From positions 62,001-126,000 of the forward strand of contig NZ_JAGQDE010000013.1 in the NCBI RefSeq assembly GCF_018069755.1: a DNA stretch of 64,000 nucleotides, given 5' to 3'. Within the stretch, counting starts at the first letter, position 1; the number at the start of each line of letters is the position of its first letter. The position numbers and the translations under genes are program-made. Below the pieces are notes generated by a model, which was not told the origin of the DNA, searched no databases, and saw only the letters and a list, made by a program, of their open reading frames with translations. This stretch comes from Ideonella aquatica (GTDB taxonomy: Bacteria; Pseudomonadota; Gammaproteobacteria; Burkholderiales; Burkholderiaceae_C). Shown here one piece after another: positions 4,127 to 53,868 of the stretch.

Positions 4127-5746
4127 ATGCCCCGCCCCGCCGTCGCCGCCCCGGCCCCTTCCCCCGCCCCGGCGGCCCTGACGGCCCAGGACCGGCTGCA
4201 CGCCGCCTGGCGCCTGCTGGCGGTGGCGGTGCTGGGCTTTGCCTCCGGCCTGCCGCTGGCCCTGACCGGCCAGGCGCTGCAGGCCTGGCTGAGCCAGTCG
4301 GGGGTGGACATCGCCACCATCGGCTTTCTCAGCCTGGTGGGCCTGCCCTACACCTTCAAGTTCCTGTGGGCGCCGCTGATGGACCGCTTCGATCCGCCCT
4401 GGCTGGGTCGGCGCCGCGGCTGGCTGGTGCTGACGCAGCTGCTGCTGGCGCTGGGGCTGTGGGCGATGTCGGTGACGCCGCCGCAGGGCGCGCTGCAGGC
4501 GCTGGCGTTGCTGGCGGTGGCGGTGGCCTTTCTGTCGGCCTCGCAGGATGTGGCGGTGGGCGGCTACCAGACCGATCTGCTGGCGGCGCGCGAGCGCGGC
4601 ATGGGTGCGTCGCTCAATGTGATGGGCTACCGGCTGGCGATGATCGTCTCGGGCGGCATCGCGCTGATCTGGACCGATGCACTGCAGGGCGGCGGCTGGA
4701 CCTGGCCTGAGGTCTACCGTCTGATGGCCGCCATCCTGGCCGGCGCCGCGGTGTTCAGCGCGGTGGCGCTGCCGCGCCTGAAAACGCCGCCACCGCTGGC
4801 CCAGCCTGGCGGGCATGACCTGAAGGGCTTTCTGGCCGTGCTGGGCGCGGCGGCCTTGGGCTATCTGATCACCGACCGCGCGCTGGTGCCTGCCGCTCAT
4901 GCGTTGCTGGCACCGCTGTGGCAGGGCAGCACGCTGCCCGCCGCGCTGCAGCAGCGCTGGGGCGATCTGCTGGCGCTGCTGGCGGGCATCGCGATGACGC
5001 TGCCACTGGCCGTGGCCGCAGCGCGCTGGGCCCGTTTCGAGACCCTGCGCGCCGGCCTGGCCAGCTACTTTGCCCAGTCCGGCGCGGTGGCCTTCCTGGT
5101 GTTCATCGTGCTGTACAAGCTGGGCGACGCCTTTGCCGGCGCGCTGATGACGCCCTTCCTGCTCAAGAGCATGGCCTTTGCCGCGGCCGAGGTGGGCCTG
5201 GTCAACAAGGTACTGGGCCTGTGGCTGACCATCCTGGGCGCGCTGGCCGGCGGCGCGCTGATGCTGAAGCTGGGCCTGTGGCGCGCGCTGATGGTGTTCG
5301 GCGTGCTGCAGGCCGCCAGCAACCTGGGCTTCTGGTGGCTGGCCACGCACGGCCAGGGCGCGCTGGGCGCGGTGCCGGTGCCGGCCTTCGACTGGGGCTT
5401 TGTGAAGCTGGCGCAGGACAGCCGCATGGACGGCGGCTTGATCATGGTGGTGGCGCTGGAAAACCTGACTGGCGGCATGGGCACGGCGGCCTTCGTGGCC
5501 TTCCTGATGAGCCTGACGAGCCAGCGCTTCTCGGCCACCCAGTTCGCGCTGCTGTCGGCGCTGGCCTCGGTGGGCCGGGTCTGGGTGGGCCCGATGGCCG
5601 GCGTGGTGGCCGAATCGATCGGCTGGCCCGACTTCTTCGTGCTGTCCACCTTGCTGGCGCTGCCTGCGTTGGGCATGCTGTGGTGGCTGCGGCCGCAGGT
5701 TCAGGCGCTGGAACTGGACCCGAACCCCGCGCTGCTTGATGACTGA
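4127..5746 (+). CDS. ampG: AmpG-family muropeptide permease (MFS)
   Basis: This 539-residue, strongly hydrophobic protein has about 12-14 predicted membrane helices. AmpG carries GlcNAc-anhydroMurNAc peptides from the periplasm into the cytoplasm for cell-wall recycling and beta-lactamase signalling. Diagnostic features are GFASGLPLALTGQALQAWLS near residue 36, LVGLPYTFKFLWAPLMDRF and the cytoplasmic GRRRGWLVLTQ loop, all characteristic of AmpG rather than sugar MFS carriers. The ATG at 4127 was preferred to an upstream start at 4058 because the hydrophobic AmpG core begins shortly after it. The next gene, an M48 protease, starts 11 bases after the stop and is probably co-transcribed. No beta-lactamase or AmpR is nearby. 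Confidence 0.88.
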   Translation: MPRPAVAAPAPSPAPAALTAQDRLHAAWRLLAVAVLGFASGLPLALTGQALQAWLSQSGVDIATIGFLSLVGLPYTFKFLWAPLMDRFDPPWLGRRRGWLVLTQLLLALGLWAMSVTPPQGALQALALLAVAVAFLSASQDVAVGGYQTDLLAARERGMGASLNVMGYRLAMIVSGGIALIWTDALQGGGWTWPEVYRLMAAILAGAAVFSAVALPRLKTPPPLAQPGGHDLKGFLAVLGAAALGYLITDRALVPAAHALLAPLWQGSTLPAALQQRWGDLLALLAGIAMTLPLAVAAARWARFETLRAGLASYFAQSGAVAFLVFIVLYKLGDAFAGALMTPFLLKSMAFAAAEVGLVNKVLGLWLTILGALAGGALMLKLGLWRALMVFGVLQAASNLGFWWLATHGQGALGAVPVPAFDWGFVKLAQDSRMDGGLIMVVALENLTGGMGTAAFVAFLMSLTSQRFSATQFALLSALASVGRVWVGPMAGVVAESIGWPDFFVLSTLLALPALGMLWWLRPQVQALELDPNPALLDD

Positions 5747-5756
5747 CGGAGACCCG

Positions 5757-6710
5757 ATGACCGCCCGACCCGCCCCGCTGACCCTGGACGCCGACATCGC
5801 CCTGCCGCCGCTGGCCCACCGCGAAGGCTGCAGCTGTGGCCTGCACCGCCGCCGCCGTGTCTTTGGCGGGCTGGCTGGTGTCGCCGCGCTGAGCACCCCG
5901 CTGGGCGCGCTGGCCCAGCAGGGCGTGCGCGACGAGGTGGGCAAGACCAGCGGCTTCACCAAGCTGGTCTCGGCCGAGCAGGTGGAACAGGCCGCCACCG
6001 AACAGTACGGCCAGATGAAGCGCCAGGCCGCCGCCAAGAACGCACTGCTGCCCGACAACCACCCGCAGGTCATCCGCCTGCGTGCCATCGCCAACCGCAT
6101 CATCCCCTTCACCAACCCCTGGAACAAGCGGGCCGCCCAGTGGCGCTGGGAGGTCAACCTGATCGGCTCCAAGGACCTCAACGCCTTTTGCATGCCCGGC
6201 GGCAAGATCGCCTACTACTTCGGCATCCTGCAGCGCCTGCAACTGAGCGACGACGAAGTGGCCATGATCATGGGCCACGAGGTGGCCCACGCGCTGCGCG
6301 AACACGCCCGCGAACGCATGGGCAAGACGGCGGCCACCCGCGTGGGCGCCGGCCTGCTCAGCTCGCTGCTGGGCTTGGGCAACCTGGGCGACGCCGCGCT
6401 GAACATCGGCGGCCAGCTGCTGACCCTGAAGTTCAGCCGCCAGGACGAAAGCGAAGCCGACCTGGTCGGCCTGGACCTGGCCGCCCGCGCCGGCTACGAC
6501 CCCCGCGCCGGCATCAGCCTGTGGCAGAAGATGCTCAAGGCCAGCGAAGGCGCCCCGCCCGAGTTCATGTCCACCCACCCGGCGGGGCCGACGCGGATCA
6601 AGGACATCGAGGGGACCTTGCCGAAGGTGATGCCGCTGTACACGGCGGCGCCGAAGCCGGGGCAGCGGTTTGCGCCGCCGGCGGCGGAGGGCGGCGCGGC
6701 TGCGAGATAG
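5757..6710 (+). CDS. M48-family zinc metalloprotease (LoiP/YggG-like)
   Basis: This 317-residue protein has an arginine-rich N-terminal stretch followed by a hydrophobic segment (residues about 31-53), which looks like a Tat-type or atypical export signal. The zinc motif HEVAH is at residues 174-178. The third ligand lies in DESEADLVGLDL, and the C-terminal STHPAG-x-TRI motif is typical of periplasmic or membrane-bound M48 peptidases that cut misfolded envelope proteins. The ATG at 5757 follows ACGGAG and avoids the overlap that a start at 5736 would create. Placement behind ampG fits an envelope-maintenance operon, though the specific substrate is unknown. Confidence 0.85.
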   Translation: MTARPAPLTLDADIALPPLAHREGCSCGLHRRRRVFGGLAGVAALSTPLGALAQQGVRDEVGKTSGFTKLVSAEQVEQAATEQYGQMKRQAAAKNALLPDNHPQVIRLRAIANRIIPFTNPWNKRAAQWRWEVNLIGSKDLNAFCMPGGKIAYYFGILQRLQLSDDEVAMIMGHEVAHALREHARERMGKTAATRVGAGLLSSLLGLGNLGDAALNIGGQLLTLKFSRQDESEADLVGLDLAARAGYDPRAGISLWQKMLKASEGAPPEFMSTHPAGPTRIKDIEGTLPKVMPLYTAAPKPGQRFAPPAAEGGAAAR

Positions 6711-6744
6711 GGCCTTGCCACCGGGGGCGGGGCGCTGAAGCGAC

Positions 6745-7386
6745 TTACCACCGGGACGGCAGCGCCTTCAGCAAGCACATCGCCTTGTCCCTGGTATCCA
6801 CGAAGCCGCCGCGTTCCAGGTCCTTCATCACCCGGCTGACCATCTCGCGCGAGCACCCCAGGTGCTGGGACATCTGCTGATGCGTCAGCCGCTCGCCGAT
6901 CACGCGCACGCCCTGTGCATCCGGCGGACCGGCCAGTTCCTCCAGCAGCACGCGCAGTCGGCCATAGACATCGTTGAGCGCCAGTTGCCGCGCTGAGAGC
7001 GTGGCAGCTCGCGCGCGGCGGATCACCTTGGCCAGCAGCTCCAGTGCGAATTCGGGGTGATCGGCGATGTGGGCCAGCAGCGTGCGCTGTGTCACCACCA
7101 CGCACTCGCTGGCCTCCAGGGTCTCGACACTGGCCGAGCGCGGCCCACCGTCCAGGCTCATCTCGCCCAGGTACTCGCCAGGGCCGTAGGTGCCGTAGGT
7201 GATCTCCTTGCCGTTGTCGGCGGCCGAGAAGGCGCGCAGGCGGCCGCTGGCGATCAGGTACAGCGTGTCGCCTTGGTCGCCCTCCTGGATCAGCAGGGTG
7301 CCTTTGCGGTAGCGGCGCAACTCTCCGCGCTGTGCCAGCGGGCGCAAAGAGGTAGAAAAGACCAGCAGCTGATCATCTCTTGACAT
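6745..7386 (-). CDS. Crp/Fnr-family transcriptional regulator
   Basis: This 213-residue protein has an N-terminal cyclic-nucleotide-binding-like beta barrel (GTLLIQEGDQGDTLYLIASG, about residues 29-48) and a C-terminal winged helix with LTHQQMSQHLGCSREMVSRV as recognition region (about residues 165-185). No cysteine cluster for an Fe-S centre is visible, so it is not a classical Fnr. Its ligand cannot be told from the sequence; the GEMSLDGGPRSASV loop resembles cAMP-binding proteins. It is convergent with the M48 gene. A nucleotide-cyclase-domain gene starts about 1.2 kb away, which makes a functional link possible but unproven. Confidence 0.85.
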   Translation of the reverse strand: MSRDDQLLVFSTSLRPLAQRGELRRYRKGTLLIQEGDQGDTLYLIASGRLRAFSAADNGKEITYGTYGPGEYLGEMSLDGGPRSASVETLEASECVVVTQRTLLAHIADHPEFALELLAKVIRRARAATLSARQLALNDVYGRLRVLLEELAGPPDAQGVRVIGERLTHQQMSQHLGCSREMVSRVMKDLERGGFVDTRDKAMCLLKALPSRW

Positions 7387-7630
7387 GGGCTGATAGTAGC
7401 GCCGTCCTTGCGCCCACCACCTTGCCGATGGGCCAGTCCTTTTCAGCGGTCGTTGCCATCGCCGGGATCGAAGCGTTGCTCAAACCGCGCTGCTCGTCGT
7501 ACTTTGGCATCGTGCCAACCGCGCGGCCTCGCGGCAGCTCAACGGGCAGGTCCAAGGGTCTTTGTGCTGACCGCTTGGTGCCCAGCCAGAGGCGCCTGAC
7601 TACATGTGTGAGGCTTGACTCGATGGGCGC

Positions 7631-8386
7631 TTAGGCAACCCGCCGCGGTACGATCTGGGGCACCTCAGAGCCACCCAGGAAGCCGCGCAGCACACCCATC
7701 ATGGGCGGCAGTACGGCCACAGCTTGGACCAGCTCCCGGATGCCCGGTGTATCGGTCTTGGCGCGGATGCAGGCGATCTGGGTGCGCACCGTCGCGATCT
7801 TCACCTGGTGGCGCTCGGCGATCTCGTTGGGTGTCAGTCCGTCGCACAACGCGCGCAGTACTCGCTCCTCGCCTTCCGACAGACCATGGGCGCGGGCGTA
7901 CCCGTGAATGCTCAGCTCGCCGCAGACTTCGCGCCGGCCCAGCATCAGCAGGGCACCCACCGATGTATCGCCGCGGCCCACCGCCGACCAGCCTGGCCAG
8001 CCCAGCGGGATCACTGACACGTTGATGCGCTGGGCTCCATCGCCGAGCGTCAGCAGGCGCCGCAGGCCACGAGTGACCGCATCGTGCACCGCGTCGTGCA
8101 GCGCGGCCACGTCCTTCGAATGCCGAGCGCGCAGTTCGCCGCCGAGCAACTGAAGTGGATGGGTCTGGCCCAACTCGCCGCGTGCCGCATGGTTGACGTG
8201 CAACACCTGCCGCGCATCAGCCAGCAGCAGCACGCCGTAGTCGATCTCGTCGAGCACCTGGGCCAACAGGATGGCCAGCGCGAGGCTGGCCGTTCGCCGC
8301 TCCGGTCCGGCGTAGGGCAAAGGGCGATGCCAGGCGTTGTCAGGCGCGCGGCGAGGTTCTGTGGGGCTGGGCTGGAACGGGTTCAT
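7631..8386 (-). CDS. LuxR-type (HTH) transcriptional regulator with PAS-like N-terminus
   Basis: This 251-residue protein ends in a LuxR-type helix-turn-helix: HGLSEGEERVLRALCDGLTP, then NEIAERHQVKIATVRTQI (about residues 165-208). The N-terminal part (about residues 40-150) reads like a degenerate PAS sensor (VLDEIDYGVLLLADARQVLHVN). No receiver domain or autoinducer-binding signature is present. It is divergent from the cyclase-PAP2-subtilase operon, with 251 bases between them containing a perfect 12-bp palindrome. It is therefore the obvious candidate local regulator of that operon; this is inference from position. Confidence 0.82.
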   Translation of the reverse strand: MNPFQPSPTEPRRAPDNAWHRPLPYAGPERRTASLALAILLAQVLDEIDYGVLLLADARQVLHVNHAARGELGQTHPLQLLGGELRARHSKDVAALHDAVHDAVTRGLRRLLTLGDGAQRINVSVIPLGWPGWSAVGRGDTSVGALLMLGRREVCGELSIHGYARAHGLSEGEERVLRALCDGLTPNEIAERHQVKIATVRTQIACIRAKTDTPGIRELVQAVAVLPPMMGVLRGFLGGSEVPQIVPRRVA

Positions 8387-8637: not shown

Positions 8638-10398
8638 ATGGTGTCGGAGCTGCCCAGTCAGCATTTGGTCGTCCTGTTCGCCGATCTGGTCGAATCGGTC
8701 CGCCTTTTCCGCGACTTCGAGCGCTCGGTGATCGAACGCTGGCACGGCTTCGTCAGACGGGTCGAGGATGAACTGGCCGCCCAGCACCGGGGTCGGCTGG
8801 TGCGCTCCGCTGGCGACGGCCTGCTGCTGGAGTTTGCCTCGGCGCTCGACGCCACAGCGGCGTCCTTCTCGCTGCATCAGGCCCTCGAGGGCTTCAATAA
8901 GGGCTGCCCTTCGGCCGAACGATTCCAATTGCGGATCGGGGTCCATGCCGACCAGGTTGTCTCGTTCGCGCACGAGCTGTACGGCGCAGGTGTCAACATC
9001 GCGGCGCGCCTGGCATCGCTGGCCCAACCCGGCCAGACGCTGGCCTCTGCCCAGGTCAGGCAGGCCCTGGCCGATGGCGTGCACGCCCATGTCATCGACC
9101 TGGGTTTGCGCTACGCCAAGCATGTGGAGGAGCCGCTGAGGGTGTTTCGCCTGGAGCCACCGCAGCCGGGTGGCTTGGTGCAGGTCAGTGCCGATCCGAA
9201 CCAGGACCTTCGGCCCACCGTGGCCGTGGTCCCCTTCGTGGCCATTCCGTCCGACCCCTCGCACGACGCGATTGGCCACGCACTGGCCGACGACATCATC
9301 GCCTCGCTGGCCCGACACCCCTCACTGAGGGTGCTGTCGCGCGTCAGCACGGCTGTCCTGCGCGGTAGCGACACGCCACAGGCGTTTAGAGAGTCCCTGG
9401 GCGCTTCGTTCTTGCTCAGCGGACAGTACTACGTACAGGGCTCGCGCGTGCGTCTGTCGTTTGAACTCAGCGAGCTGGACGGCTGCTCGGTGCTGTGGAC
9501 CGGACGCACGGTGGGCGATGTGCAAGCCTTGTTCGAGGGGACCGACGAGCTGGTACCGCACATCGTCACCCAGGTCTCTCAGCAGATCATCGGTCGCGAG
9601 CTGAGCCGCGCGCGCAGCCTGCCTGTCGACGCGCTGTCGTCCTACACGCTGTTCCTTGGTGCCAGCGGTCTGCTGCACAGCCTGGTCAAGTCCGACTTCC
9701 AGGTCGCGCGCGAGGTCTTCGAGCACCTTGCAGAGCGCCACCCGCGCCATGCCGCGCCGCTGGCCATGCTGAGCCGATGGCAGGTGTTTGCCCTGGAGCA
9801 GGGCTGGGTGAGCGATCGGTCCCTGGCCAGCCAGTTAGCCCGCGAGTACTGCGAGCGTGCACTGGACCGGGATCCCCATCACGGGCCGGCCCATGCAGCC
9901 CTGGGACAGGTGTGCTCCAACTTTGAGGGCGACCTGGGGTCAGCCCGCGAGCTGAACCAGCGTGCCATCGAACTGGAGCCTTCCGATGCCCTGGCCTGGG
10001 CGCAACTGTCCGCGATGCAGGCCTTCCTGGGCGAGACCGATGAATCCTGCGCGTCGGTGGTGGAGAGTCTTCGGCTGTCGCCGCTCGACCCCAGCCGCTA
10101 CCTGTTTGAGACATACGCTGCGCTGGCCTTCATCGCGGCAGGCGACTATGCGCGCGCCGTGACCTACGCCGCCAGCTCGGTGCGTCAGCACGCGCTTCAT
10201 GCTCCAGGCCTGCACCTGCTGGTGGGCGCCCAATGGCTGAACGGCGAGCATGAAGCCGCGCGCCGCACCACCCAACGCTACCTGCAACTGGATCCCAAGG
10301 CGACCGCCGGTCCTGGCAGCAGGCGCAGGCTGGGACACGGCCAGTCCTGGCGTGCCCATTTCGAGCAGGCGCTGATCAGCGCAGGCGTTCCTCCCTGA
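8638..10398 (+). CDS. Class III nucleotide cyclase domain - TolB-like domain - TPR protein
   Basis: This 586-residue protein starts at the ATG at 8638, preceded by GGGAGGGG at 8621-8628; an in-frame ATG at 8605 lacks a ribosome-binding site. Residues about 8-170 form a class III adenylate/guanylate cyclase catalytic domain, with metal aspartates Asp16 (VVLFADLVES) and Asp60 (SAGDGLLLEF) and transition-state residues Asn120/Arg124 (GAGVNIAARL). The residue where active relatives carry a purine-binding lysine (VKT-x-GDG) is Arg56, so activity or specificity may be altered. Residues about 190-320 look like the TolB N-terminal-like domain often found in such cyclases (VAVVPFVAI, LGASFLLSGQYY). 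The rest is TPR helices. It is the first gene of a tight operon with a PAP2/haloperoxidase-fold protein and a subtilase. Confidence 0.82.
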   Translation: MVSELPSQHLVVLFADLVESVRLFRDFERSVIERWHGFVRRVEDELAAQHRGRLVRSAGDGLLLEFASALDATAASFSLHQALEGFNKGCPSAERFQLRIGVHADQVVSFAHELYGAGVNIAARLASLAQPGQTLASAQVRQALADGVHAHVIDLGLRYAKHVEEPLRVFRLEPPQPGGLVQVSADPNQDLRPTVAVVPFVAIPSDPSHDAIGHALADDIIASLARHPSLRVLSRVSTAVLRGSDTPQAFRESLGASFLLSGQYYVQGSRVRLSFELSELDGCSVLWTGRTVGDVQALFEGTDELVPHIVTQVSQQIIGRELSRARSLPVDALSSYTLFLGASGLLHSLVKSDFQVAREVFEHLAERHPRHAAPLAMLSRWQVFALEQGWVSDRSLASQLAREYCERALDRDPHHGPAHAALGQVCSNFEGDLGSARELNQRAIELEPSDALAWAQLSAMQAFLGETDESCASVVESLRLSPLDPSRYLFETYAALAFIAAGDYARAVTYAASSVRQHALHAPGLHLLVGAQWLNGEHEAARRTTQRYLQLDPKATAGPGSRRRLGHGQSWRAHFEQALISAGVPP

Positions 10399-10429
10399 GT
10401 ACACGGCCTACGGATGAAAGGGCAAGACC

Positions 10430-11746
10430 ATGGCGAGTTACGTGATTCCTCCCGGGGCATGGCTCAGTGGCAGCGCGCTGAATCCGGGGGTTGGCGGGCA
10501 CTCTGCCGGCATCGGAGGCCACTCCGCAGGCATTGGAGGGCACTCTGCGGGCATCGGCGGCCACTCGGCGGGTGTGAGGGGGCATTCGGCTCAACTCACG
10601 ATGTTCAGCTCAGGCATCGGCGGACACCACAGGCGACCTGGCGTCAGCGTCAGCGACCATGCGGCTGAGCACCTGGCCGCCGCTGCGGCACGGCTCACCA
10701 GTGGTGTACCCTGGCGAGGCCACGACCCTGATTGGGTCTATGCCGGCAATGACGACGCCCTGTTGGCCGAGGCCATCAATCGGTCCAATGCGCGCATCGT
10801 CGGGGCGTTGGATCCGCGACAAGAATCGGTTGATCCGGCTCGGATAGCCAGCCCAGTCTGCGACGAAGGCTGCAAGGCCGGCTCGGACACTGCCCTTTGG
10901 CGCTGGGGTGCCGAGCCACAGGCCCTGACCGTGCTGTCTGACCTGAGCTGGCGCTTTCGTGTCAAGGGCGCCTGCCTGTACGCGGCCTCGAGCTTTGGAG
11001 CACAGGAGGAGTTGAACTTTCAGCCCAGCATCAAGCTGTTTCTGATGAAGCCCGAATGGCAGGACGAGCAGATTGACAAGGTGCTCCGCGCTGCCATTGA
11101 GCGTGAGGATCGCCTGCCGGAGATCCTCAGTCAAGCGGACGACTTCATGCCCTTCTTCTACAGCGTGGTCGGCATCCATCCGGAGGTGGCACCCATCACC
11201 TGCGCGATGCTGGTCATCGCCCAGCGATGGGCCACGATGCTGGTCATGGCCTTCAAGCACCAGCTGGCTGCACGTCGCCCCCATGTCACCTCGTCACGCA
11301 TCCTTCCGGTGATCGATACACCGGCGCATGGGTCGCTGCCCAGCGGACACGCCACGGTCTCGGCCATGGTGTCGGCATTGCTTTCCCGGCTGGTCTACGG
11401 GGCGCCCACACGCCGCGCGGACAAAGTGATGCAACTCAACCGACTGGCTCGGCGCATTGCGTTCAACCGCGTTGTGGCGGGCGTCCACTTTCCGATCGAC
11501 AGCCGCGCCGGTCATGCCTTGGGGCTTCAACTGGCCGCCCACTTCGTTGGCCTGGCCACCGACGGGGATGCCCCCACCTTTTTCGAGGAAGGCGGTGACA
11601 AGCAGGAACTGAGGGAACTCGGCGCCCCCAACAGGCCGCCTGCATTGAATCGCGGCGTCGCCGCGCCGCAAGAGCCTCGCCACAGCCCACTGCTGGCGAC
11701 GATGTGGCGCGCCAGCGAGCGCGAACTCACCCGCCTGGGTTTCTGA
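10430..11746 (+). CDS. PAP2 / vanadium-haloperoxidase-superfamily protein with N-terminal repeats
   Basis: This 438-residue protein carries all three phosphate/vanadate-binding motifs in the second half: K-x6-RP (KHQLAARRP), PSGH (LPSGHATVSAM) and a variant of SR-x5-H-x3-D in which Ser is Asn (NRVVAGVHFPID). Such proteins are either vanadium-dependent haloperoxidases or acid phosphatases; the soluble character and the PSGHA context favour the haloperoxidase side, but activity cannot be assigned. Residues 22-54 are near-perfect GGHSAGI heptapeptide repeats, unusual for the family. No signal peptide is visible. The gene starts 31 bases after the cyclase gene, and its stop sits 10 bases before the subtilase start. 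Confidence 0.8.
   Translation: MASYVIPPGAWLSGSALNPGVGGHSAGIGGHSAGIGGHSAGIGGHSAGVRGHSAQLTMFSSGIGGHHRRPGVSVSDHAAEHLAAAAARLTSGVPWRGHDPDWVYAGNDDALLAEAINRSNARIVGALDPRQESVDPARIASPVCDEGCKAGSDTALWRWGAEPQALTVLSDLSWRFRVKGACLYAASSFGAQEELNFQPSIKLFLMKPEWQDEQIDKVLRAAIEREDRLPEILSQADDFMPFFYSVVGIHPEVAPITCAMLVIAQRWATMLVMAFKHQLAARRPHVTSSRILPVIDTPAHGSLPSGHATVSAMVSALLSRLVYGAPTRRADKVMQLNRLARRIAFNRVVAGVHFPIDSRAGHALGLQLAAHFVGLATDGDAPTFFEEGGDKQELRELGAPNRPPALNRGVAAPQEPRHSPLLATMWRASERELTRLGF
10493..10591 (+). repeat. Tandem 21-bp coding repeats (GGHSAGI)
   Basis: About 4.7 copies of a 21-base unit encode GGHSAGI at residues 22-54 of the PAP2/haloperoxidase-fold protein. The first three copies are identical at protein level and the later ones diverge (GGHSAGV, RGHSA). 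Third-position differences between copies show that the repeat is not brand new. Confidence 0.85.
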
Positions 11747-11756
11747 GGAGGCCACG

Positions 11757-13853
11757 ATGCACTGGACGTCGCCACGCGCCACGCCCGTAGACCGCCAGGC
11801 AGGAGATCCCTACTTCGCCTGGGCTCGTGCCACCCAGTGGCGTGGCTTTCGTCGCCTGATCGGGGAGCGCCTGGGCTCCGGTGACAACCAGCCGCCGCCG
11901 ATTCGCATCTTGGTTCAGGCCGCGGAGCATGAATCGGCGCAGCAGGCCATCGATCACTACGAAAGCGTCGGCGTCTGGAGAGTCGCCGAGGTCTACAAGA
12001 ACAAGCCACTGCGCCACTTTGTCGCCGAGCTGGCCTGCCCAGAGGCGCATGGTCCCGAGGACTTTGATGCCGTCCTGAATGGCTTGGAGAGTCTGCAGTC
12101 TCAGGGGCTTCAATGGGAGCTGGCACTGCCCTTTCGCGATGCCGACACCGCGGCACGCGCCCAGGCGGTGGGCGCCTACGGAGAGACCCGGCAGGCGTCG
12201 GCGTTCAGCCCGAAGTCAGCCTTCGTACCCCAAGACCTTTCTGACGAGCGGGTGCGCCTAAGTGGTCTGGTGATGGCCGTCGTCGACTTCGGCTTCCCCT
12301 TCCTCAACCTGACCTTTCGCGCTCCTAGACGCGGCGAGGACCAGGACACGCCAGCTAGCCGTGTTCACGCCCTCTGGGACCAAGGAGGCGCTTGCGCCCC
12401 GCGACCGTACGTAAACCATCTGCCGAGCGGCTGGCCCTGGTCGGACGCAAGCCCCCGAATGGGATATGGGCGGGAGTTGCGCCAGGCCGCCATTCAGGAT
12501 GTGCTGACCCAGTACTGCAGCCTTAGCCGGTCAGGGCATTTGCCCGATGAGGCCGAGGCCTACCGCATGATCAATTACCTGATCGACTATGACGATCCCC
12601 GTCGCCGCGTCTGGGCGGCAACCCATGGCAGTCATGTGACGTCGGTGGCCGCCGGGCAGACCGACCCCTTGAGGCCCGACTCGACCGAGGTCGATGCTGC
12701 CGGACAAGCGCCGTTGGTGCTGGTTCAACTCCCCGCACTGACGGCGGCAGACAGCGGCGGAGGCTCGTTGTCGGCCCAGGTGCTCGATGCCGTCCACTAT
12801 GTGCTCGACCAGTGCAAGCCCGAGGCAAAGATTGTCCTGACGCTGAGCTATGGCAGCCTGGCCGGTCCCCACGACGGCAGCACGCTGATTGAACAAGCTT
12901 TGGATGAACTGATCGAACACTTTGAGCAGGGTGGCGGGACGCTGGCTCTGGTGCTCGGGGCAGGCAACAGCCGGCAGGCGGCCTGTCATGTGCGGCGCAC
13001 GGTGCGCAAGGACCGAAGCGCGCTGCTGCGAGTCGGCCTGGCTGAAGGCGATTACACCGACACCTACGTGGAAACCTGGTTCCAGTCTCGGGACCACCTG
13101 TCCAGCGTCGAAGCTCGGGCACGCACCTGCGACGGCGACTGGAGCCCTTGGGTGGCCCCCGGCGAAGAGGCCGTGTTGACGGAAGGCCGATCCGGCGGCG
13201 CGCAGGCCGGACCAACCATCGCCCGATTGAGCTTTCAGGAGCACGTTCCCAATGGCAGCAAGCCCCTGCTGTTGCTGGCGATGGCGCCGACTGCGAGGCC
13301 GGCCGATGACGACGGGCCGCTGGCGCGCCCGGGCTCTTGGCAGATCGAGATCAAGTTGGATGCCGATGCCTCCGTCACACTCGACGCATGGGTGGAGCGC
13401 GACGATCCGGGTTGGCTGGGCTATGGCGTACAGCCGCGTTTCGAGGAACAGCGTTGGGGCGACGATGAAGAAACGCTGAGCAGTCTGGCCTCTGGCCGCT
13501 GCACGATCGTGGCCGGCGGTTTCCGATTGTCCAACCGCCAGCGTGCGGACTACTCGGCCATGGGCGCTCGTCAAGGTGCGCCAGTGGTCTACGCCGCCTG
13601 CGAGGAGAGCGACATTCTGCCCACGGTCAGGGGCGCCGCCACTCGCTCAGGCGACAGTCTGCGCATCTGCGGCACCAGCGTTGCCGCTCCGGTGCTGGCG
13701 CGATGCATCTACAACTGGATGTCGGCTAATCCGGGGGAGCCCATCACAGCCGCTGACTGGCGTGGAACACTTAAGGTCATCGTCGAGGATGAACAGACGA
13801 AGGCTATTGAACACGATCGCCCCGCGAAGCTGCGACTCGGAACGGAGCCTTAA
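11757..13853 (+). CDS. S8 (subtilisin-like) serine peptidase, intracellular-type
   Basis: This 698-residue protein has a full subtilase catalytic set: Asp177 (VMAVVDFGFPF), His290 (THGSHVTSVAAG), oxyanion Asn404 (VLGAGNSRQ) and Ser641 (RICGTSVAAPVLAR). A roughly 165-residue N-terminal extension precedes the catalytic domain, and about 230 residues with a beta-rich look are inserted between Asn404 and Ser641. No signal peptide is visible, so secretion would need a non-Sec route or the enzyme acts inside the cell. GAGGAGG directly overlaps the end of the upstream gene and supports the ATG at 11757. It closes the cyclase-PAP2-subtilase operon. Confidence 0.83.
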   Translation: MHWTSPRATPVDRQAGDPYFAWARATQWRGFRRLIGERLGSGDNQPPPIRILVQAAEHESAQQAIDHYESVGVWRVAEVYKNKPLRHFVAELACPEAHGPEDFDAVLNGLESLQSQGLQWELALPFRDADTAARAQAVGAYGETRQASAFSPKSAFVPQDLSDERVRLSGLVMAVVDFGFPFLNLTFRAPRRGEDQDTPASRVHALWDQGGACAPRPYVNHLPSGWPWSDASPRMGYGRELRQAAIQDVLTQYCSLSRSGHLPDEAEAYRMINYLIDYDDPRRRVWAATHGSHVTSVAAGQTDPLRPDSTEVDAAGQAPLVLVQLPALTAADSGGGSLSAQVLDAVHYVLDQCKPEAKIVLTLSYGSLAGPHDGSTLIEQALDELIEHFEQGGGTLALVLGAGNSRQAACHVRRTVRKDRSALLRVGLAEGDYTDTYVETWFQSRDHLSSVEARARTCDGDWSPWVAPGEEAVLTEGRSGGAQAGPTIARLSFQEHVPNGSKPLLLLAMAPTARPADDDGPLARPGSWQIEIKLDADASVTLDAWVERDDPGWLGYGVQPRFEEQRWGDDEETLSSLASGRCTIVAGGFRLSNRQRADYSAMGARQGAPVVYAACEESDILPTVRGAATRSGDSLRICGTSVAAPVLARCIYNWMSANPGEPITAADWRGTLKVIVEDEQTKAIEHDRPAKLRLGTEP

Positions 13854-36150: not shown

Positions 36151-36816
36151 TCAGGGCTGCAGCAGCGCATCCAGGCGGTCGATCACGCGGTCGGGGCCCG
36201 AGGCCTCGACCGGCTCGCCGTGGTTGTAGCCATAGCGCACCAGCACCACCGGGCAGCCGGCGGCGCGGGCGGCCTGGCAGTCGTTGCTGGAGTCGCCCAC
36301 CATCAGCGTCTGCGCGGGCGTGGTGCCCAGCGCAGCGCAGGTGCGCAGCAGCGGCAGCGGGTCGGGCTTCTTGCGCTCGAAGGCGTCGCCGCCAAACACC
36401 ACGTCGAAGTGCCCGTCCAGGCCCTTGCGCGCCAGCAGCTCGCGCGCAAATTCGCCCGGCTTGTTGGTCAGGCAGGCCAGGCGCAGGCCGCGCGCGCGCA
36501 GCGCCTGCAGGCCCTCCGGCACGCCTGGGTACACGGCCGAGTGCGCGCCGTTGATGCTGCGGTAATGGCGCTGGTAGGCGGCCCAGGCGGCCTCGTACAG
36601 CGCAGCGTCGGCGCCCACCTCGGCCAGCGTGCGGCGGATCAGGTGCTCCGAGCCCTTGCCCACCGTGCGCTCGATGAACGCGCGGCCAATCGCCGGCTGA
36701 CCCAGCTCGGCCAGTGTGCGGTTCAGCGCGGCGTCGAAATCGCCCACGGTGTCCACCATCGTGCCGTCCAGGTCAACGATGGCGGCGTGCCAGGGCAGGA
36801 TCGTGGGTGAGGTCAT
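36151..36816 (-). CDS. gph: Phosphoglycolate phosphatase (HAD superfamily)
   Basis: This 221-residue HAD hydrolase has motif I VDLDGTMVDT (nucleophile Asp), motif II LTNKPGEFA, motif III Lys in FERKKPDPLPLL and motif IV VGDSSNDCQAARAAGC, as in bacterial Gph. Gph removes phosphate from 2-phosphoglycolate, the product of RuBisCO oxygenation. A form I RuBisCO operon lies about 10 kb away, so a role in photorespiratory salvage is plausible though Gph is also general housekeeping. The ATG at 36816 was chosen at the start of the HAD fold; a longer frame to 36963 adds Arg-rich sequence. Confidence 0.84.
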   Translation of the reverse strand: MTSPTILPWHAAIVDLDGTMVDTVGDFDAALNRTLAELGQPAIGRAFIERTVGKGSEHLIRRTLAEVGADAALYEAAWAAYQRHYRSINGAHSAVYPGVPEGLQALRARGLRLACLTNKPGEFARELLARKGLDGHFDVVFGGDAFERKKPDPLPLLRTCAALGTTPAQTLMVGDSSNDCQAARAAGCPVVLVRYGYNHGEPVEASGPDRVIDRLDALLQP

Positions 36817-36959
36817 GGGCGAGTGGGCTGCAAGACGGGGTGCCCGGATTGTGCGGCGCCGCGCCCGGCCCGCGTGCGGGGTGGGGTGTTGGCTGGGGCC
36901 GGGCGCGGCGCCACAGACCTGATCTCGAGAACGCCGCAGGGCGGCGGTTGCACGATGGT

Positions 36960-38123
36960 TCACAGAACCGGAGACACCGCGCGCTGGTGTTGTCGCCAGA
37001 ACGGGGCCTCAGGAAAGCGGGTCTCCGCCCAGGCGAATCCCCTCAGAGCGCGTTCGTTGCTCTGGTGCACGCGGCGCACGCGCGCCAGGTAATCGGCACT
37101 GTCCCAGGTGGGGCCCACGGCGCCATCCACCACGGCCGGCAACAGCGCCCGGCCCCCCTGCAGGCCGCTGTACAGCGCAAACAGCAGACCCTGCGATGCC
37201 AACGGGTTCAGCGCCAGTGCTGCATCACCCACTGCCAGCCAGCGGTGACCCGCAAAGCGGTTTTGCAGGCGCAACGCCGCGTCGTGCGCTTGCGGTGTTG
37301 CCAGCAGCTCCCCATCCACAGACGCATGGGGAAGAATGCCGCAGCGCCGCGCTTCGGCGAGCAGGGAGGCCGGTGTGCGGACATGCTCGCCCACGGCATG
37401 ACGCAGCCCATGGAAGGCCAGCACGCGCAGGCCCTGGGGCAGTCGGGCGCTGTACCACCAACCCTCGGGGACGGACATCACACGGGTGCTCTGGTCGTGG
37501 TCCGACGGTGGGCTGCGCAGCCAAGCCACGGCCGCCATCAGCTCCGCCGCGCGCACACCCGGCTCACCCAGCTTGCGAACCAGCCAGGCGGCGCGACCGG
37601 TGGCATCGATGAGGAATGGCGCGCTGAGCTCTTCTTCGACCGAGCCCCGTTGCAGCCGCACACGGTGACCGTCCGCAGCGGGCGCCAGTGCCACGGCCTG
37701 ACCATCGATGTGGGTGACGCCAGCCCGCGTCGCCAAGGCCAACATGGCGGCATCGAACCGGTGGCGCAACACCAGCCATCCGGGACCCTCCGGATCCCGC
37801 AGAGCATCGCGGAACCGCCATGCCGCTTCCCCCCAGGCTGATGCGTGGCCGGTGCACGGGATGTATTCGCCGGGCGACAGCAGACACGCCAGACTGGCCG
37901 CGCCCAGGGCGCGCAAGAGGCGCTGCGCCGCCGCCGGCAGGGACTCGCCCACCCGCCATCGCTCGTCCGGCGACGGCCCCAGCAGGACCACCGGGACATC
38001 TGCGCGCGCCAGCACGGTGGCCGCTGCGCAGCCCGCCGGCCCGGTGCCGATGACGACAACGCGCGGTTGCAAGGCCTCAGAGGCTACGCAACTTGATGGT
38101 GGCGAACTCGTTGCGCTGCTCAT
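36960..38123 (-). CDS. LodB-like FAD-dependent oxidoreductase (CTQ maturation partner)
   Basis: This 387-residue flavoprotein has an N-terminal FAD fold, VVVIGTGPAGCAAATVLARA, and a second FAD motif HRWLAVGDAALALNPLASQG, the tryptophan-halogenase/LodB type. LodB flavoproteins are needed to form the cysteine tryptophylquinone cofactor of LodA-family oxidases and are encoded beside them, as here. The start is uncertain: the ATG at 38123 overlaps the LodA-fusion gene by 47 bases and a TTG at 38072 lies just after its stop. Either way the two genes are probably coupled. A distinct halogenase-like activity cannot be excluded. Confidence 0.76.
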   Translation of the reverse strand: MSSATSSPPSSCVASEALQPRVVVIGTGPAGCAAATVLARADVPVVLLGPSPDERWRVGESLPAAAQRLLRALGAASLACLLSPGEYIPCTGHASAWGEAAWRFRDALRDPEGPGWLVLRHRFDAAMLALATRAGVTHIDGQAVALAPAADGHRVRLQRGSVEEELSAPFLIDATGRAAWLVRKLGEPGVRAAELMAAVAWLRSPPSDHDQSTRVMSVPEGWWYSARLPQGLRVLAFHGLRHAVGEHVRTPASLLAEARRCGILPHASVDGELLATPQAHDAALRLQNRFAGHRWLAVGDAALALNPLASQGLLFALYSGLQGGRALLPAVVDGAVGPTWDSADYLARVRRVHQSNERALRGFAWAETRFPEAPFWRQHQRAVSPVL

Positions 38124-41100
38124 CGCTGAACCAGCCCGCTTCCGCCAATAAGCGGTCATGCGGGCCCAGCAGGGCGTAGCGCTCGGTGAACGCCCGGTGG
38201 GCGGACGCCAGCTCGGCTTCCTTCACCGCCGTGAGGTTCTCGACATAGAGCATGGCCGGCAGCCAGTCCAGGTCGTCCGGGCGGGGCCGAGCCTCCAGCA
38301 CGCCCATCTCGCTGAAGTGCTCGATCATGTACACCATCTGCTCGGGCGCCGGGTTGGCGGACGGCAGTTGGCGCAGCCAGGCGGGACGGTTGTGGAAAGC
38401 TGCTATCCGTTCGTCCATCGGCTTGCTGCGGTCACACAGCGTCTGGTAGTCCGTCAGCGTCAGCACCTGGTTGGGCACCCGAGCCGGCCAGTAGGTGGGC
38501 AGGTAGGGGTCGAATTCCATGTCGTAGCCGGACCGGCAATAGGCCGTGTCGCCTTGCCAAGGCACGGCCATCCAGCGCGTGAGGTCACCAGGGCCCTGGT
38601 CATAGAGCGGACCACCCATGCGCAGCACGTCATCCTGCGTCAACTGAGGGCCGTAGGAGGGCTCGGCCAGGCCGGGCTGGCGTTCGCGGATCCGGTAGGG
38701 CGCCCGGAACAGACTGGCATGCCGGACCGGCCAGGTGAGTTCACAGCCGGGATGGAAGGCGTCGGCCAGGCAGAAATGCATGGCCGCGCGGTCCAGCATG
38801 TCCGGCCGCTCCTGCAGGGGCCAGTCATCCAGGGGGATGCCCTGGGACACCTCGGGCCGGTAGTCGCTGACGAAATGGCCCTGGACCCAGGCTGTCAGGA
38901 TGTAGCCGTAATAGTCGGGCAAGCGCAGGTAGGTTTGAGCGTTCACCGCGTCGGCTTCGGTGGGATCGGTGTAGCCGAAGGTATCGCCATAGGACCACGG
39001 CCAGGCGCCGATGTCCTGCTCGTCGCCCACCACGGCGCGGAAGCTGTTGAAGATCGTGCGGCGGAGTTCCGCGTAGGGGTCGGGATACAGACTGCTGGGC
39101 GGCAGGAACGACAGCTTGCGCATCAGTGCCGGGTCCCGGAAGTTCATCGGGCCGTCGGCGCCGAACATCGACGAGAAACCCTTGTTGACCCACTGCAGAT
39201 CGGTCAGGCGCTCCAGGGCGGGACGCACATGGTCCTGGAACGAGACCCGCTGCGGCAGGCTCAGCATGCCGGCCTTCGCCCAGACGGCACGCAGCAGGTC
39301 GTCCAGCGTGCGCCAGCTGGTGAGGTCGGGCGCGAAGCTCGGCGGCGCCGACAGGACCCAGGCCGGGTCGGCGTCAAAATCGCGGTCGCCAATCGTCACA
39401 CGCGCATGCACCGGGCCGTCGGCGATGTCGTCGTACCAGCCGGCGGCATTGTTGAAGCTGCCCGGGTGGGCCGGGTCATAGACCGGCGTGTTGCCCGGGC
39501 TGGCCGAGACCCCCATGCCGGGAAGAACGAGCAGCCGCCCCACGCTGTCGGTGCGCAGCTCGCCGAGATACACCGAGGTGCCCTGGAAGGTGCCGGTGAG
39601 GGCGAAGCTGGCGTCGTTCATGCCGATGCCTGTGATCTTCTTGACGCCGGCATCGATGCACAGGGCGTCACGGGCTGCGCCCTGGGCCGTGGGGTTGCGC
39701 TGTGGCACGCTGATGTTGCAGGTGGCCGGCAGGTCCATGGCGGCGTTGAACTCGTACCACTGGGCCTTGCGGTTGGCCACATGCACCGACCATTCAATGC
39801 GGCTGTTGGCCGACTGCTGGATCTCGGCCACCACGTTGCCGTTCTGGTCGTAGCCATACACGCGGAACCGGGCGGCCTGCCGTTTCAGGGCGCCCCCCGC
39901 GTCGCGCGTCTGCCCCCAGGCGGTGGGTGCCGGTGCGGTGGTTTCGGGGCCGACGTAGAAGTCGCTTGCACTGTTCCCCACTCGTGCCACCCCGATGCCG
40001 GGATGGATGCGCACCTGCGTGATCCGAGCGATCTGTTCGGCGCTGAGCGCCTGGGCCTGCGGCTGCGACGGGTGGTGCGGAAATGGGCAGGCGGGGTTGC
40101 TGACCTGGGGCTCACCGGGCGCGCTGGGTTCGGTCGTCGGCTGACCGTTCTGGGTTCGCCTGAAGTCGGCGCTGAGCAGGTAGACCTGCATACGGGCCTG
40201 CGCGATCGAGCCGACAGGCGCGTTGACGGCGGGCACCCGCCCGATGTTGAAGGCCAGCCAGTCACCGTAGATGGCTTGTGCCGGTTCGGCCACGTCCTGC
40301 TGCGGCAGCGCGATGGTGGCCACGCGCACGGGCGGCGCAAGCTTGTCGTCCCACACCACGGTGGCGCGGTCCAGCGGGAAGTGCTCGTCCAGATAGGCCT
40401 CGCCGAACGACGCGGCGTCCGGCCGCACCTGCACGTACAGGTCCAGCGTGGCCGGCCCGCGCGCCATGCGGGCGCGCAGGTCGGCGGCGAGGAAATGGGG
40501 GTCATCGGTGTCCGGGTCGCCAGGAAACGTGGAGGTGCCCGGCACCAGCATGTACTTGCAAAAGCCGCTTCCAAGGCGAAATGGCACCACGCTCCAGAGG
40601 TTCGTGGCCAGCACCGACCGGATCGGCTTGGCCATGCGGTCCAGCAGCGCGTTGGTGTCGGGCGCGTGGCGCTGCACCCATTCGTCGCCCCAGCCCTCGA
40701 AGCTGGCCTTGGTGAACTCGCACATCTGGCGAGCGTTGTCGACGAAGAAGAAGGGCACGTTCTGCAGCAGCAGGTCGGCGGTGCCTGCGCCGTCGTCCGA
40801 GACCACCTTGTCGCCGGGAACATCGAACAGCTTGATGCCCACGCCGATGGTGCTTTCCCAGTCCGGTCGGCCATCTGACAGGTCCGACGAGTAGCGGACA
40901 TACACCGGGTGCGAGCGCCCCGGATGGGCGAACAAGCCGTGCCGAATGGGGGCCGGAATGTCGTCGCTGAAGGTCAGGCGGCCTTGGAGGATGCCGTGGG
41001 TGCGCAGGAACACCGGGCGTCGGGCGGGGCACTGCCCCTGCGCCACACGGCGCTTGGCCGTCATGTCCACAAACATGTGGCCCAGACAGGCCACCGGGTC

Positions 41101-41154
41101 GTCGCAGGCGCAGGTGGCGGTGAACGACGGGTGATCGTCTTGCAGACTACGCAT
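38077..41154 (-). CDS. Fusion of a catalase-like heme domain and a LodA-like CTQ-dependent oxidase
   Basis: This is a 1025-residue protein. AGGAAGGAG six bases before the ATG at 41154 fixes the start. Residues about 20-340 resemble small catalase-related heme proteins of the y4iL type: His53 (FLRTHGILQGRL), Asn132 (LLLQNVPFFF) and Tyr325 (MQVYLLSADFR) occupy the places of distal His, distal Asn and proximal Tyr. Residues about 375-1025 are LodA/GoxA-like: IHPGIGVARVGNSASDFYVG at the start and LTRWMAVPWQGDTAYC near 858-873. The cofactor pair is probably one of Cys795/Cys804 with Trp861/Trp866; in LodA Cys516 and Trp581 are 65 apart. LodA enzymes oxidise an amino acid and release ammonia and H2O2, so the catalase-like half could consume the product. 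No signal peptide is visible. The LodB-like gene follows at once. Confidence 0.8.
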   Translation of the reverse strand: MRSLQDDHPSFTATCACDDPVACLGHMFVDMTAKRRVAQGQCPARRPVFLRTHGILQGRLTFSDDIPAPIRHGLFAHPGRSHPVYVRYSSDLSDGRPDWESTIGVGIKLFDVPGDKVVSDDGAGTADLLLQNVPFFFVDNARQMCEFTKASFEGWGDEWVQRHAPDTNALLDRMAKPIRSVLATNLWSVVPFRLGSGFCKYMLVPGTSTFPGDPDTDDPHFLAADLRARMARGPATLDLYVQVRPDAASFGEAYLDEHFPLDRATVVWDDKLAPPVRVATIALPQQDVAEPAQAIYGDWLAFNIGRVPAVNAPVGSIAQARMQVYLLSADFRRTQNGQPTTEPSAPGEPQVSNPACPFPHHPSQPQAQALSAEQIARITQVRIHPGIGVARVGNSASDFYVGPETTAPAPTAWGQTRDAGGALKRQAARFRVYGYDQNGNVVAEIQQSANSRIEWSVHVANRKAQWYEFNAAMDLPATCNISVPQRNPTAQGAARDALCIDAGVKKITGIGMNDASFALTGTFQGTSVYLGELRTDSVGRLLVLPGMGVSASPGNTPVYDPAHPGSFNNAAGWYDDIADGPVHARVTIGDRDFDADPAWVLSAPPSFAPDLTSWRTLDDLLRAVWAKAGMLSLPQRVSFQDHVRPALERLTDLQWVNKGFSSMFGADGPMNFRDPALMRKLSFLPPSSLYPDPYAELRRTIFNSFRAVVGDEQDIGAWPWSYGDTFGYTDPTEADAVNAQTYLRLPDYYGYILTAWVQGHFVSDYRPEVSQGIPLDDWPLQERPDMLDRAAMHFCLADAFHPGCELTWPVRHASLFRAPYRIRERQPGLAEPSYGPQLTQDDVLRMGGPLYDQGPGDLTRWMAVPWQGDTAYCRSGYDMEFDPYLPTYWPARVPNQVLTLTDYQTLCDRSKPMDERIAAFHNRPAWLRQLPSANPAPEQMVYMIEHFSEMGVLEARPRPDDLDWLPAMLYVENLTAVKEAELASAHRAFTERYALLGPHDRLLAEAGWFSDEQRNEFATIKLRSL

Positions 41155-41441
41155 CGCAGGCTCCTTCCTGATGTGCCTTGGATGGGTTGCACGGAAGGCG
41201 CCACATCTGGTTCTTGTTGGCGTCACTTCCGCGGCTGCACACTAGCAGGACAGGTCGACCAGCGGTCTGGTGTTTTCCCGGCCACGCCGGATCCGGCTGG
41301 CCGCCGGTGCGAAACCGGCTCGCGGGGGCGCCGTCGATACAGCCGACGCCATGCAACCACAGCGGGGCGTGATCGTCGGTTCCGCCTGCGCCGGCTTCAG
41401 GCCAGGGCTGTTGGCGTTGGGCTTCAGGCTATAGTGCCCGC
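41155..41441. other. Divergent intergenic region upstream of the oxidase and lipase genes
   Basis: These 287 bases separate the oppositely oriented catalase-LodA and lipase genes. Apart from the ribosome-binding site of the former (41160-41168 on the minus strand), no promoter, operator or repeat was confidently recognised. Confidence 0.3.

Positions 41442-51573: not shown

Positions 51574-53868
<2,295 letters not shown>

Follow-up and report, generated by a model that had tools for sequence, protein, structure and literature searches.

Enzymes which make hydrogen peroxide (H2O2) must cope with it. LodA and GoxA produce it during the oxidation of amino acids, and their cofactor, cysteine tryptophylquinone (CTQ), is built with the help of LodB or GoxB (PMC4699246, PMC7876137). 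In a stretch of 64,000 nucleotides from Ideonella aquatica (assembly GCF_018069755.1, contig NZ_JAGQDE010000013.1, positions 62,001 to 126,000; the whole stretch is called the window hereafter) one gene appears to join a catalase-like heme domain to a LodA/GoxA-type CTQ oxidase, which raises the question of whether the peroxide made by one half is handled by the other. The fusion had been pointed out in a sequence-only reading of the window, whose premise that LodA-type enzymes produce H2O2 from amino acids agrees with the two papers cited above.

In this work we have analyzed the fusion protein, its relatives and its evolutionary history. The catalase-domain/CTQ-oxidase architecture is confirmed as real and well supported. 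We favour, at a probability of about 60%, a bifunctional enzyme of the Group III type listed by Campillo-Brocal et al. (2015; PMC4417212), in which the heme domain would consume in cis the H2O2 of the CTQ domain. What the analysis shows are the two domains with their conserved residues, the neighbouring gene for a predicted maturase, the joint inheritance and one split version; that the protein binds heme, forms CTQ, produces H2O2 and couples its two halves, and which substrate it takes, is inferred.

Results

The fusion gene and its relatives

The gene and its parts are as follows.

38077..41154, minus strand: fusion gene for a catalase-like, predicted heme domain and a CTQ oxidase, 1025 aa; open frame, ATG with AGGAAGGAG upstream, both domains found in relatives
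40120..41097, minus strand: catalase-fold (y4iL-type) domain, residues about 20-345; assigned by profile matches to 3e4w, catalases and coral allene oxide synthase (cAOS), and by a structure model searched with Foldseek
40030..40119, minus strand: linker, residues 346-375; placed by alignment columns and low predicted local distance difference test (pLDDT) values at residues 357-363
38080..40029, minus strand: LodA/GoxA-type CTQ oxidase domain, residues 376-1025; assigned by Pfam LodA_N and LodA_C and by PDB LodA/GoxA in sequence and fold

The frame runs from the ATG at 41154, directly preceded by AGGAAGGAG, to the stop codon at 38077-38079; an alternative GTG start at 41226 would give a protein of 1049 aa. 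Genome contigs were scanned with a four-row alignment, and the best 80 of 386 confirmed relatives were kept; the query being fused, this set is biased to fusions and is no census. All 80 loci come from other assemblies and carry a frame matching both profiles, which together with the single open frame bears out the proposal of one polypeptide with both domains. The alternative raised alongside it, a sequencing error fusing two genes, is thereby ruled out as not credible. At least a third of the catalase part is missing from the frame in three of the 80: L035 (at a contig end), L038 and L056 (in several frames). The linker varies between 13 and 38 residues over the columns of residues 346-377 in an 84-row alignment. 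The genome of the window (5.17 Mb, 99.99% complete) has the fusion in a single copy; a search of it with the fusion protein gave no further match at E≤0.001.

The relatives belong to Pseudomonadota (35), Bacteroidota (22), Actinomycetota (12), Myxococcota (3), Nitrospirota, Cyanobacteriota and Acidobacteriota (two each) and Planctomycetota (one), with one locus unassigned; phyla were taken from record titles and many of the loci are metagenome bins. The nearest relatives are 61-72% identical (8 of the 46 aligned) and come from Nitrospira, Flavobacteriaceae, Saprospiraceae, Limnohabitans, Leucothrix and Paracoccaceae. Among the matches listed in a search of 200 genomes of the same family, the oxidase part was reached in three (the genome of the window, G164 and G078), and the fusion had no match in two genomes of the same genus. 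The nearest relatives in distant hosts and the few listed oxidase matches in the own family point to wide horizontal transfer. In evenly drawn samples the oxidase part occurred in 12 of 398 genomes at the level of the phylum and in 10 of 369 at that of the class, with an overlap of three genomes; besides the genome of the window each set held one fused gene (L111, L134), L135 being left uncounted, with its two parts in different frames. The copies L028 (Flavobacterium) and L037 (a Limnohabitans metagenome-assembled genome) lie very close on the tree, with end branches of about 0.03 each and hosts in different phyla, which reflects either recent transfer or a binning error.

The N-terminal half has a catalase fold

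The first 340 or so residues had been described as catalase-like. The profile and the fold uphold this description; the single sequence falls short of the family model, since the N-terminal 365 aa alone scored 13.4 bits against Pfam Catalase (E=0.042) and thus did not reach the cut-off of 25 for the canonical monofunctional catalase PF00199. When sequences were scanned singly at E≤0.001, PF00199 was matched by 10 of the 47 fused N-domains (that of the window gave no such match), or by 15 of 52 with five stand-alone relatives included. The best PDB match of the single sequence was 3e4w (E=0.0072), and a profile of the 47 fused N-domains, window included, matched the same catalase-related protein at E=1.1e-12, catalase 4qol at 4.4e-8 and cAOS 1u5u at 3.5e-5. 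With the five stand-alone rows added the values were 2.7e-15, 2.6e-8 and 4.9e-5, so that the assignment to the catalase superfamily is the same with and without them.

The structure model of this domain (mean pLDDT 92.5) gave 183 PDB matches in Foldseek at E≤0.001. The 50 listed were all of the catalase fold (E 2e-15 to 4e-13, TM-score 0.58-0.67 on query length) and comprised 3e4w/3e4y, catalases, catalase-phenol oxidases, chanoclavine synthase and allene oxide synthase, with 3e4y first (2.1e-15) and catalases from 7e-15. Because the profile of fused rows and the structure model agree, though the single sequence misses Pfam Catalase, the placement of the domain in the catalase superfamily is firm. 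By profile and fold its closest solved relative is 3e4w/3e4y, the catalase-related protein of Mycobacterium avium paratuberculosis, which differs in standing alone and shares 19% identity; we take 3e4w to be a peroxidase.

The putative heme site of the window protein consists of H53, N132, R87, R321, Y325 and R332, the Arg-x3-Tyr spacing being what we take to be the proximal heme motif of catalases. His53, Asn132 and Tyr325, the three residues named by the sequence-only reading, are indeed found at those positions.

40996..40998, minus strand: His53, predicted distal heme His; 81/81 aligned rows with a letter, 3 gaps
40759..40761, minus strand: Asn132, predicted distal Asn; 80/82 rows with a letter (Ala in L091 and L092), 2 gaps
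40180..40194, minus strand: R321-x-x-x-Y325, predicted proximal heme ligand motif; Arg and Tyr each 83/83 rows with a letter, 1 gap

The C-terminal half is a predicted CTQ oxidase nearer to GoxA

Residues 384-601 match Pfam LodA_N (E=1.8e-73, 247.5 bits, cut-off 26.3) and residues 738-882 match LodA_C (E=1.7e-33, 115.9 bits, cut-off 25). The assignment of residues from about 375 to 1025 to the LodA/GoxA family therefore stands in Pfam and PDB, with the qualification that this half is nearer to GoxA than to LodA, because it scored 364 bits against the NCBIfam GoxA equivalog NF038173 and 163 bits against the LodA equivalog NF038172 (both under the cut-offs, 750 and 600), and because the predicted pocket His is as in GoxA. 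The following residues could be assigned by alignment.

38752..38754, minus strand: His801, equivalent of GoxA H583, predicted substrate pocket; counted on the GoxA alignment, 84/84
38548..38550, minus strand: Asp869, equivalent of GoxA D678; counted on the GoxA alignment, 84/84
38536..38538, minus strand: Cys873, predicted CTQ cysteine; aligned with GoxA C682, 84/84
38488..38490, minus strand: Trp889, predicted CTQ tryptophan; aligned with GoxA W697, 84/84

In the PDB GoxA alignment Phe567 stands opposite F316. D678, H583 and F316 of GoxA are named as mutated positions in PDB entries among the matches, and they presumably line the GoxA pocket. GoxA, the glycine oxidase of Pseudoalteromonas luteoviolacea (PDB 6byw), thus shares the CTQ Cys and Trp and the equivalents of Asp678, His583 and Phe316 with the window protein; it differs in having no heme domain and is about 20% identical to the window oxidase in the structural alignment. 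LodA, the lysine epsilon-oxidase of Marinomonas mediterranea (PDB 2ymw/3weu), has family and fold in common with the window oxidase and likewise no heme domain, but Cys at the position of window His801.

At the 3′ end of the fusion gene lies a gene for a candidate maturase.

36960..38123, minus strand: LodB/GoxB/QhpG-like flavoprotein, predicted CTQ maturase; assigned by NCBIfam

Its frame opens at 38159, with start candidates at 38159 and 38123, both inside the fusion gene, and at 38072. The NCBIfam matches (GoxB 1.2e-47, QhpG 3.6e-47, LodB 2.1e-44) all lie under the equivalog cut-offs. A lodB-like gene directly follows the fusion in 78 of the 80 relatives, L079 and L092 stopping at a contig end; on a stricter count it is 77, L056 being broken.

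Both predicted active sites are conserved

Conservation was counted on an alignment of 83 fused frames (the 80 loci and L021-L023) and the window. Two broken frames, L024 (5986-9409) and L025 (5944-8944), were left out; these fusion copies on Sinorhizobium plasmids extend over several frames, like decaying genes. Cys873, Trp889, Asp869, His801 and Glu805 are each present in 84 of 84 rows. With the counts given above for the N-terminal half, the predicted heme and CTQ sites are both under strong constraint.

In 24 stand-alone y4iL-like relatives of the N-domain the distal His is kept in 17 and the Asn in 16; the Arg and the Tyr are present in all 23 rows with a letter, the remaining row having a gap. 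Gln131 marks the fused type (52/52 fused vs 0/24 stand-alone), as does Trp187 (52/52 vs 9/24). A catalase fold which has lost its chemistry and serves as a structural or dimerisation module would agree with the loss of the distal His in 7/24 stand-alone relatives and with Ala in place of Asn132 in two fusions. It is, however, hard to reconcile with a proximal Tyr and Arg and a distal His which are invariant in the covering fused rows of eight phyla, and we hold this explanation to be improbable.

The residue preceding the distal His is variable; 47 of the 52 fused rows have L, P, Q or T. The window protein has Thr, like T66 of cAOS. Classical catalases have Val there. Given the small domain of the y4iL/3e4w type and this variability, we lean weakly to a heme site that would be peroxidase-like or slowly catalatic rather than that of a fast classical catalase.

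A probable single old fusion with several losses

Quick trees with support from the Shimodaira-Hasegawa-like approximate likelihood ratio test (SH-aLRT) only were built for both halves. In the oxidase tree the fused rows numbered 52 (46 of the 80 loci, L021-L023, L111, L134 and the window) and the unfused ones 24; repeat fragments and L118, L135, L138 and L140 were excluded. For the catalase tree, rooted on the stand-alone rows, 24 of these longer than 220 aa were taken from the same family and from the flanks of the fetched loci (L014 fell out).

All 52 fused oxidases fall in one clade of 60 rows (support 100, starred), together with 8 unfused rows in several places. The tree requires six changes between fused and unfused, three of them forced by starred branches, and constraining the fused rows to a clade of their own was rejected (p-AU, approximately unbiased test, 6e-5; four long-branched rows left out). 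In the catalase tree the fused domains are set apart as a single clade from the stand-alone rows (support 100, starred, though the program warned of long branches meeting). The distances of the two halves are strongly correlated over the 52 fused rows (Mantel r 0.865, the highest of 2000 permutations giving 0.224), with a rate ratio of 1.08. These results are most simply read as one old fusion, joint inheritance of the halves and several losses of the catalase half. In the survey of Campillo-Brocal et al. the fusions were reported not to cluster (PMC4417212), whereas here all 52 share one clade with 8 unfused rows; losses inside one clade would explain that finding.

Each of the 8 nested unfused oxidases keeps the Cys, Trp, Asp and His and has a lodB-like gene nearby (on the opposite strand in L026). 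These bear on a role of the heme domain in building the cofactor: it might act like MauG in the synthesis of tryptophan tryptophylquinone (TTQ), with H2O2 as oxidant for the Trp/Cys precursor from which CTQ arises in the same polypeptide. MauG is a di-heme protein that helps to build a related cofactor (PMC7876137), and here a heme-type domain is fused to the very target of modification. Such a role is nevertheless very improbable, as a LodB/GoxB-like gene already adjoins 78/80 fusions and the 8 oxidases without a catalase half retain the Cys, Trp and Asp along with their lodB-like gene. Pfam scans of the upstream frames of five of the eight (L002, L026, L109, L126 and L127) and of the extra N-terminal piece of L110 revealed no common partner.

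When the window N-domain was searched against the 11 genomes or records behind the unfused oxidases, four gave matches: G527 has a catalase of the fused type (40% identity, E=3e-62), and in G164, G078 and G397 the matches are distant relatives. G527 carries a split version on one strand, with the oxidase (L149, 2566-4956), lodB (4929-6032) and a catalase-type gene (6201-8108, 635 aa). The catalase part nests in the fused clade (support 97, starred) and keeps 19 of 19 checked residues, and the oxidase is nested likewise. In this one genome the parts thus lie side by side even when split into separate genes. Both proteins are extended, the oxidase by about 155 aa at its N-terminus and the catalase-type protein by about 290 aa beyond its catalase part; neither extension has a Pfam match over the cut-off. 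Six of seven Acinetobacter loci (L042, L043, L044, L045, L052 and L056; not L040) have a second, stand-alone y4iL-like gene soon after lodB (about 10200-12100), and it groups with the stand-alone relatives and not with the fused domain.

Genomic surroundings

Two further genes of the window were considered.

36151-36963, minus strand: phosphoglycolate-phosphatase-like HAD gene; shares 4 bases with the end of the maturase gene
51574-53868, minus strand: KatG-like catalase-peroxidase, 764 aa; PF00141 in two stretches, about 10 kb from the fusion gene

The HAD gene was rejected as belonging to the system: phmmer at E≤1e-5 found no match to it in the loci of other genomes, many of which have short flanks; unrelated HAD genes lie near L002 and L023. 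The KatG-like gene, so called for its two peroxidase stretches, is the one PF00141 gene of the genome. PF00199 had no match in this genome at E≤0.001, and as the model also misses the fused domain this result is silent on y4iL-type genes. Recent acquisition of foreign DNA was not indicated by composition: the G+C content of the fusion gene (0.68-0.70) is like that of its surroundings, and gene transfer is therefore deduced from the tree.

Discussion

The kind of protein described here had been called unusual by the sequence-only reading, which is not supported, as all 80 relatives kept (with a fused query) are fusions and 21 Group III fusions of a catalase domain (pfam00199/CD08152) with LodA, 963-1072 aa in size, appear in Table 3 of the 2015 survey (PMC4417212). 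They have the domain order and size of the window protein, one Cupriavidus entry being also of 1025 aa, and a lodB-like gene is close by in all but one genome. The oxidase half of the window protein probably fits this Group III, uncharacterised in the survey: in the oxidase tree built here it belongs to the 60-row clade which holds all 52 fused rows, and the same clade has rows from organisms of Table 3, namely Oceanospirillum beijerinckii DSM 7166, Streptomyces afghaniensis 772 and Azospirillum sp. B510. The fusion type was thus catalogued in 2015, and what is added here are relatives, conservation, co-evolution, losses and a split version.

The proposed sequence of events is as follows. The downstream flavoprotein would help to build the CTQ from Cys873 and Trp889. 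The C-terminal domain, with a pocket like that of the glycine oxidase GoxA, would oxidise a small primary amine or an amino acid and hand the electrons to O2, giving H2O2. The N-terminal catalase-fold domain would bind heme through Tyr325 and remove or use the H2O2 at the His53/Asn132 site of the same molecule. That H2O2 is made and handled in one molecule is plausible and agrees with the sequence, the predicted fold and the co-evolution of the halves. 

What the heme domain would do with the peroxide is a separate matter. Coral allene oxide synthase-lipoxygenase (AOS-LOX; 1u5u, 3dy5) resembles the window protein in joining a catalase-fold domain to a C-terminal partner that forms a peroxide (PMC5617202), and differs from it in that the partner is a lipoxygenase and the peroxide a fatty-acid hydroperoxide. 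By analogy, the heme domain might take nascent H2O2 as co-substrate and act on the product of the CTQ domain or on a second substrate. Such a peroxidase or peroxygenase working in cis would make the fusion a self-contained peroxide relay, a two-step oxidation by one fused protein without release of H2O2. The constraint on the two predicted sites is strong, having held over eight phyla and through a gene fission after which the parts remained adjacent. The appearance of 1u5u and 3dy5 among the profile matches of the fused N-domains and the Thr shared by the window protein with cAOS T66 speak for it; that Thr, however, occurs in only 9/52 fused rows, and Pfam scans of ten neighbouring frames, five of them without any match, revealed no recognisable biosynthetic set. 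We regard both the co-substrate role and the relay as possible but rather unlikely.

As to the residue before the distal His, T66 of cAOS is called identical to catalase in PMC5617202, at odds with the Val of classical catalases given above, but a T66V variant with raised catalase activity is cited there. Since like heme sets go with very different rates in that paper, active-site residues cannot choose between a catalase and a peroxidase.

Several points weigh against consumption of H2O2 in cis by the heme domain. The six label changes mean repeated loss or displacement of the catalase half, which is therefore not indispensable, and 10 of the 11 genomes or records of unfused oxidases (for four of them a plasmid record only) had no fused-type catalase elsewhere. 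The split version is a single case on a long end branch (1.25). A catalase-like heme set is also present in the allene oxide synthase of coral, and close homologues lie about two orders of magnitude apart in their catalase turnover (PMC5617202). To the knowledge of Campillo-Brocal et al., no Group III protein had been characterised by 2015 (PMC4417212), and the literature searched yielded no test of the joint chemistry of the fusion; by title and start of abstract no later paper on the catalase fusion was found, subscription journals lying mostly outside the search, and the available portions of PMC6316408 do not treat it. The model of the full protein (predicted TM-score, pTM, 0.65) contains neither heme nor CTQ, and the relative placement of its domains is not to be trusted.

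Redox partners have been seen with other LodA-like proteins. An unfused LodA-like gene of Mycetohabitans (L130, 1-4920) lies two genes from a Dyp-type peroxidase, and one of Azospirillum (L132, 413-5917) directly follows a ferritin-like gene, on whose far side lies one for a di-heme oxidoreductase. Five fusions of LodA-like proteins with pfam14518 are given in the survey (PMC4417212). Redox partners near or fused to LodA-like genes fit a need to pair the oxidase with peroxide or iron chemistry.

Conclusions

The kind of fusion found in I. aquatica was catalogued in 2015 with no member characterised to the knowledge of the survey's authors (PMC4417212), so that a single member in purified form would be enough to answer the central question. 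Should the heme half remove or use H2O2 within the same chain, the protein would be a natural and horizontally spread coupling of a cascade between a protein-derived quinone and a heme. This would be of use in biocatalysis and would help to explain why enzymes of the LodA type take on redox partners.

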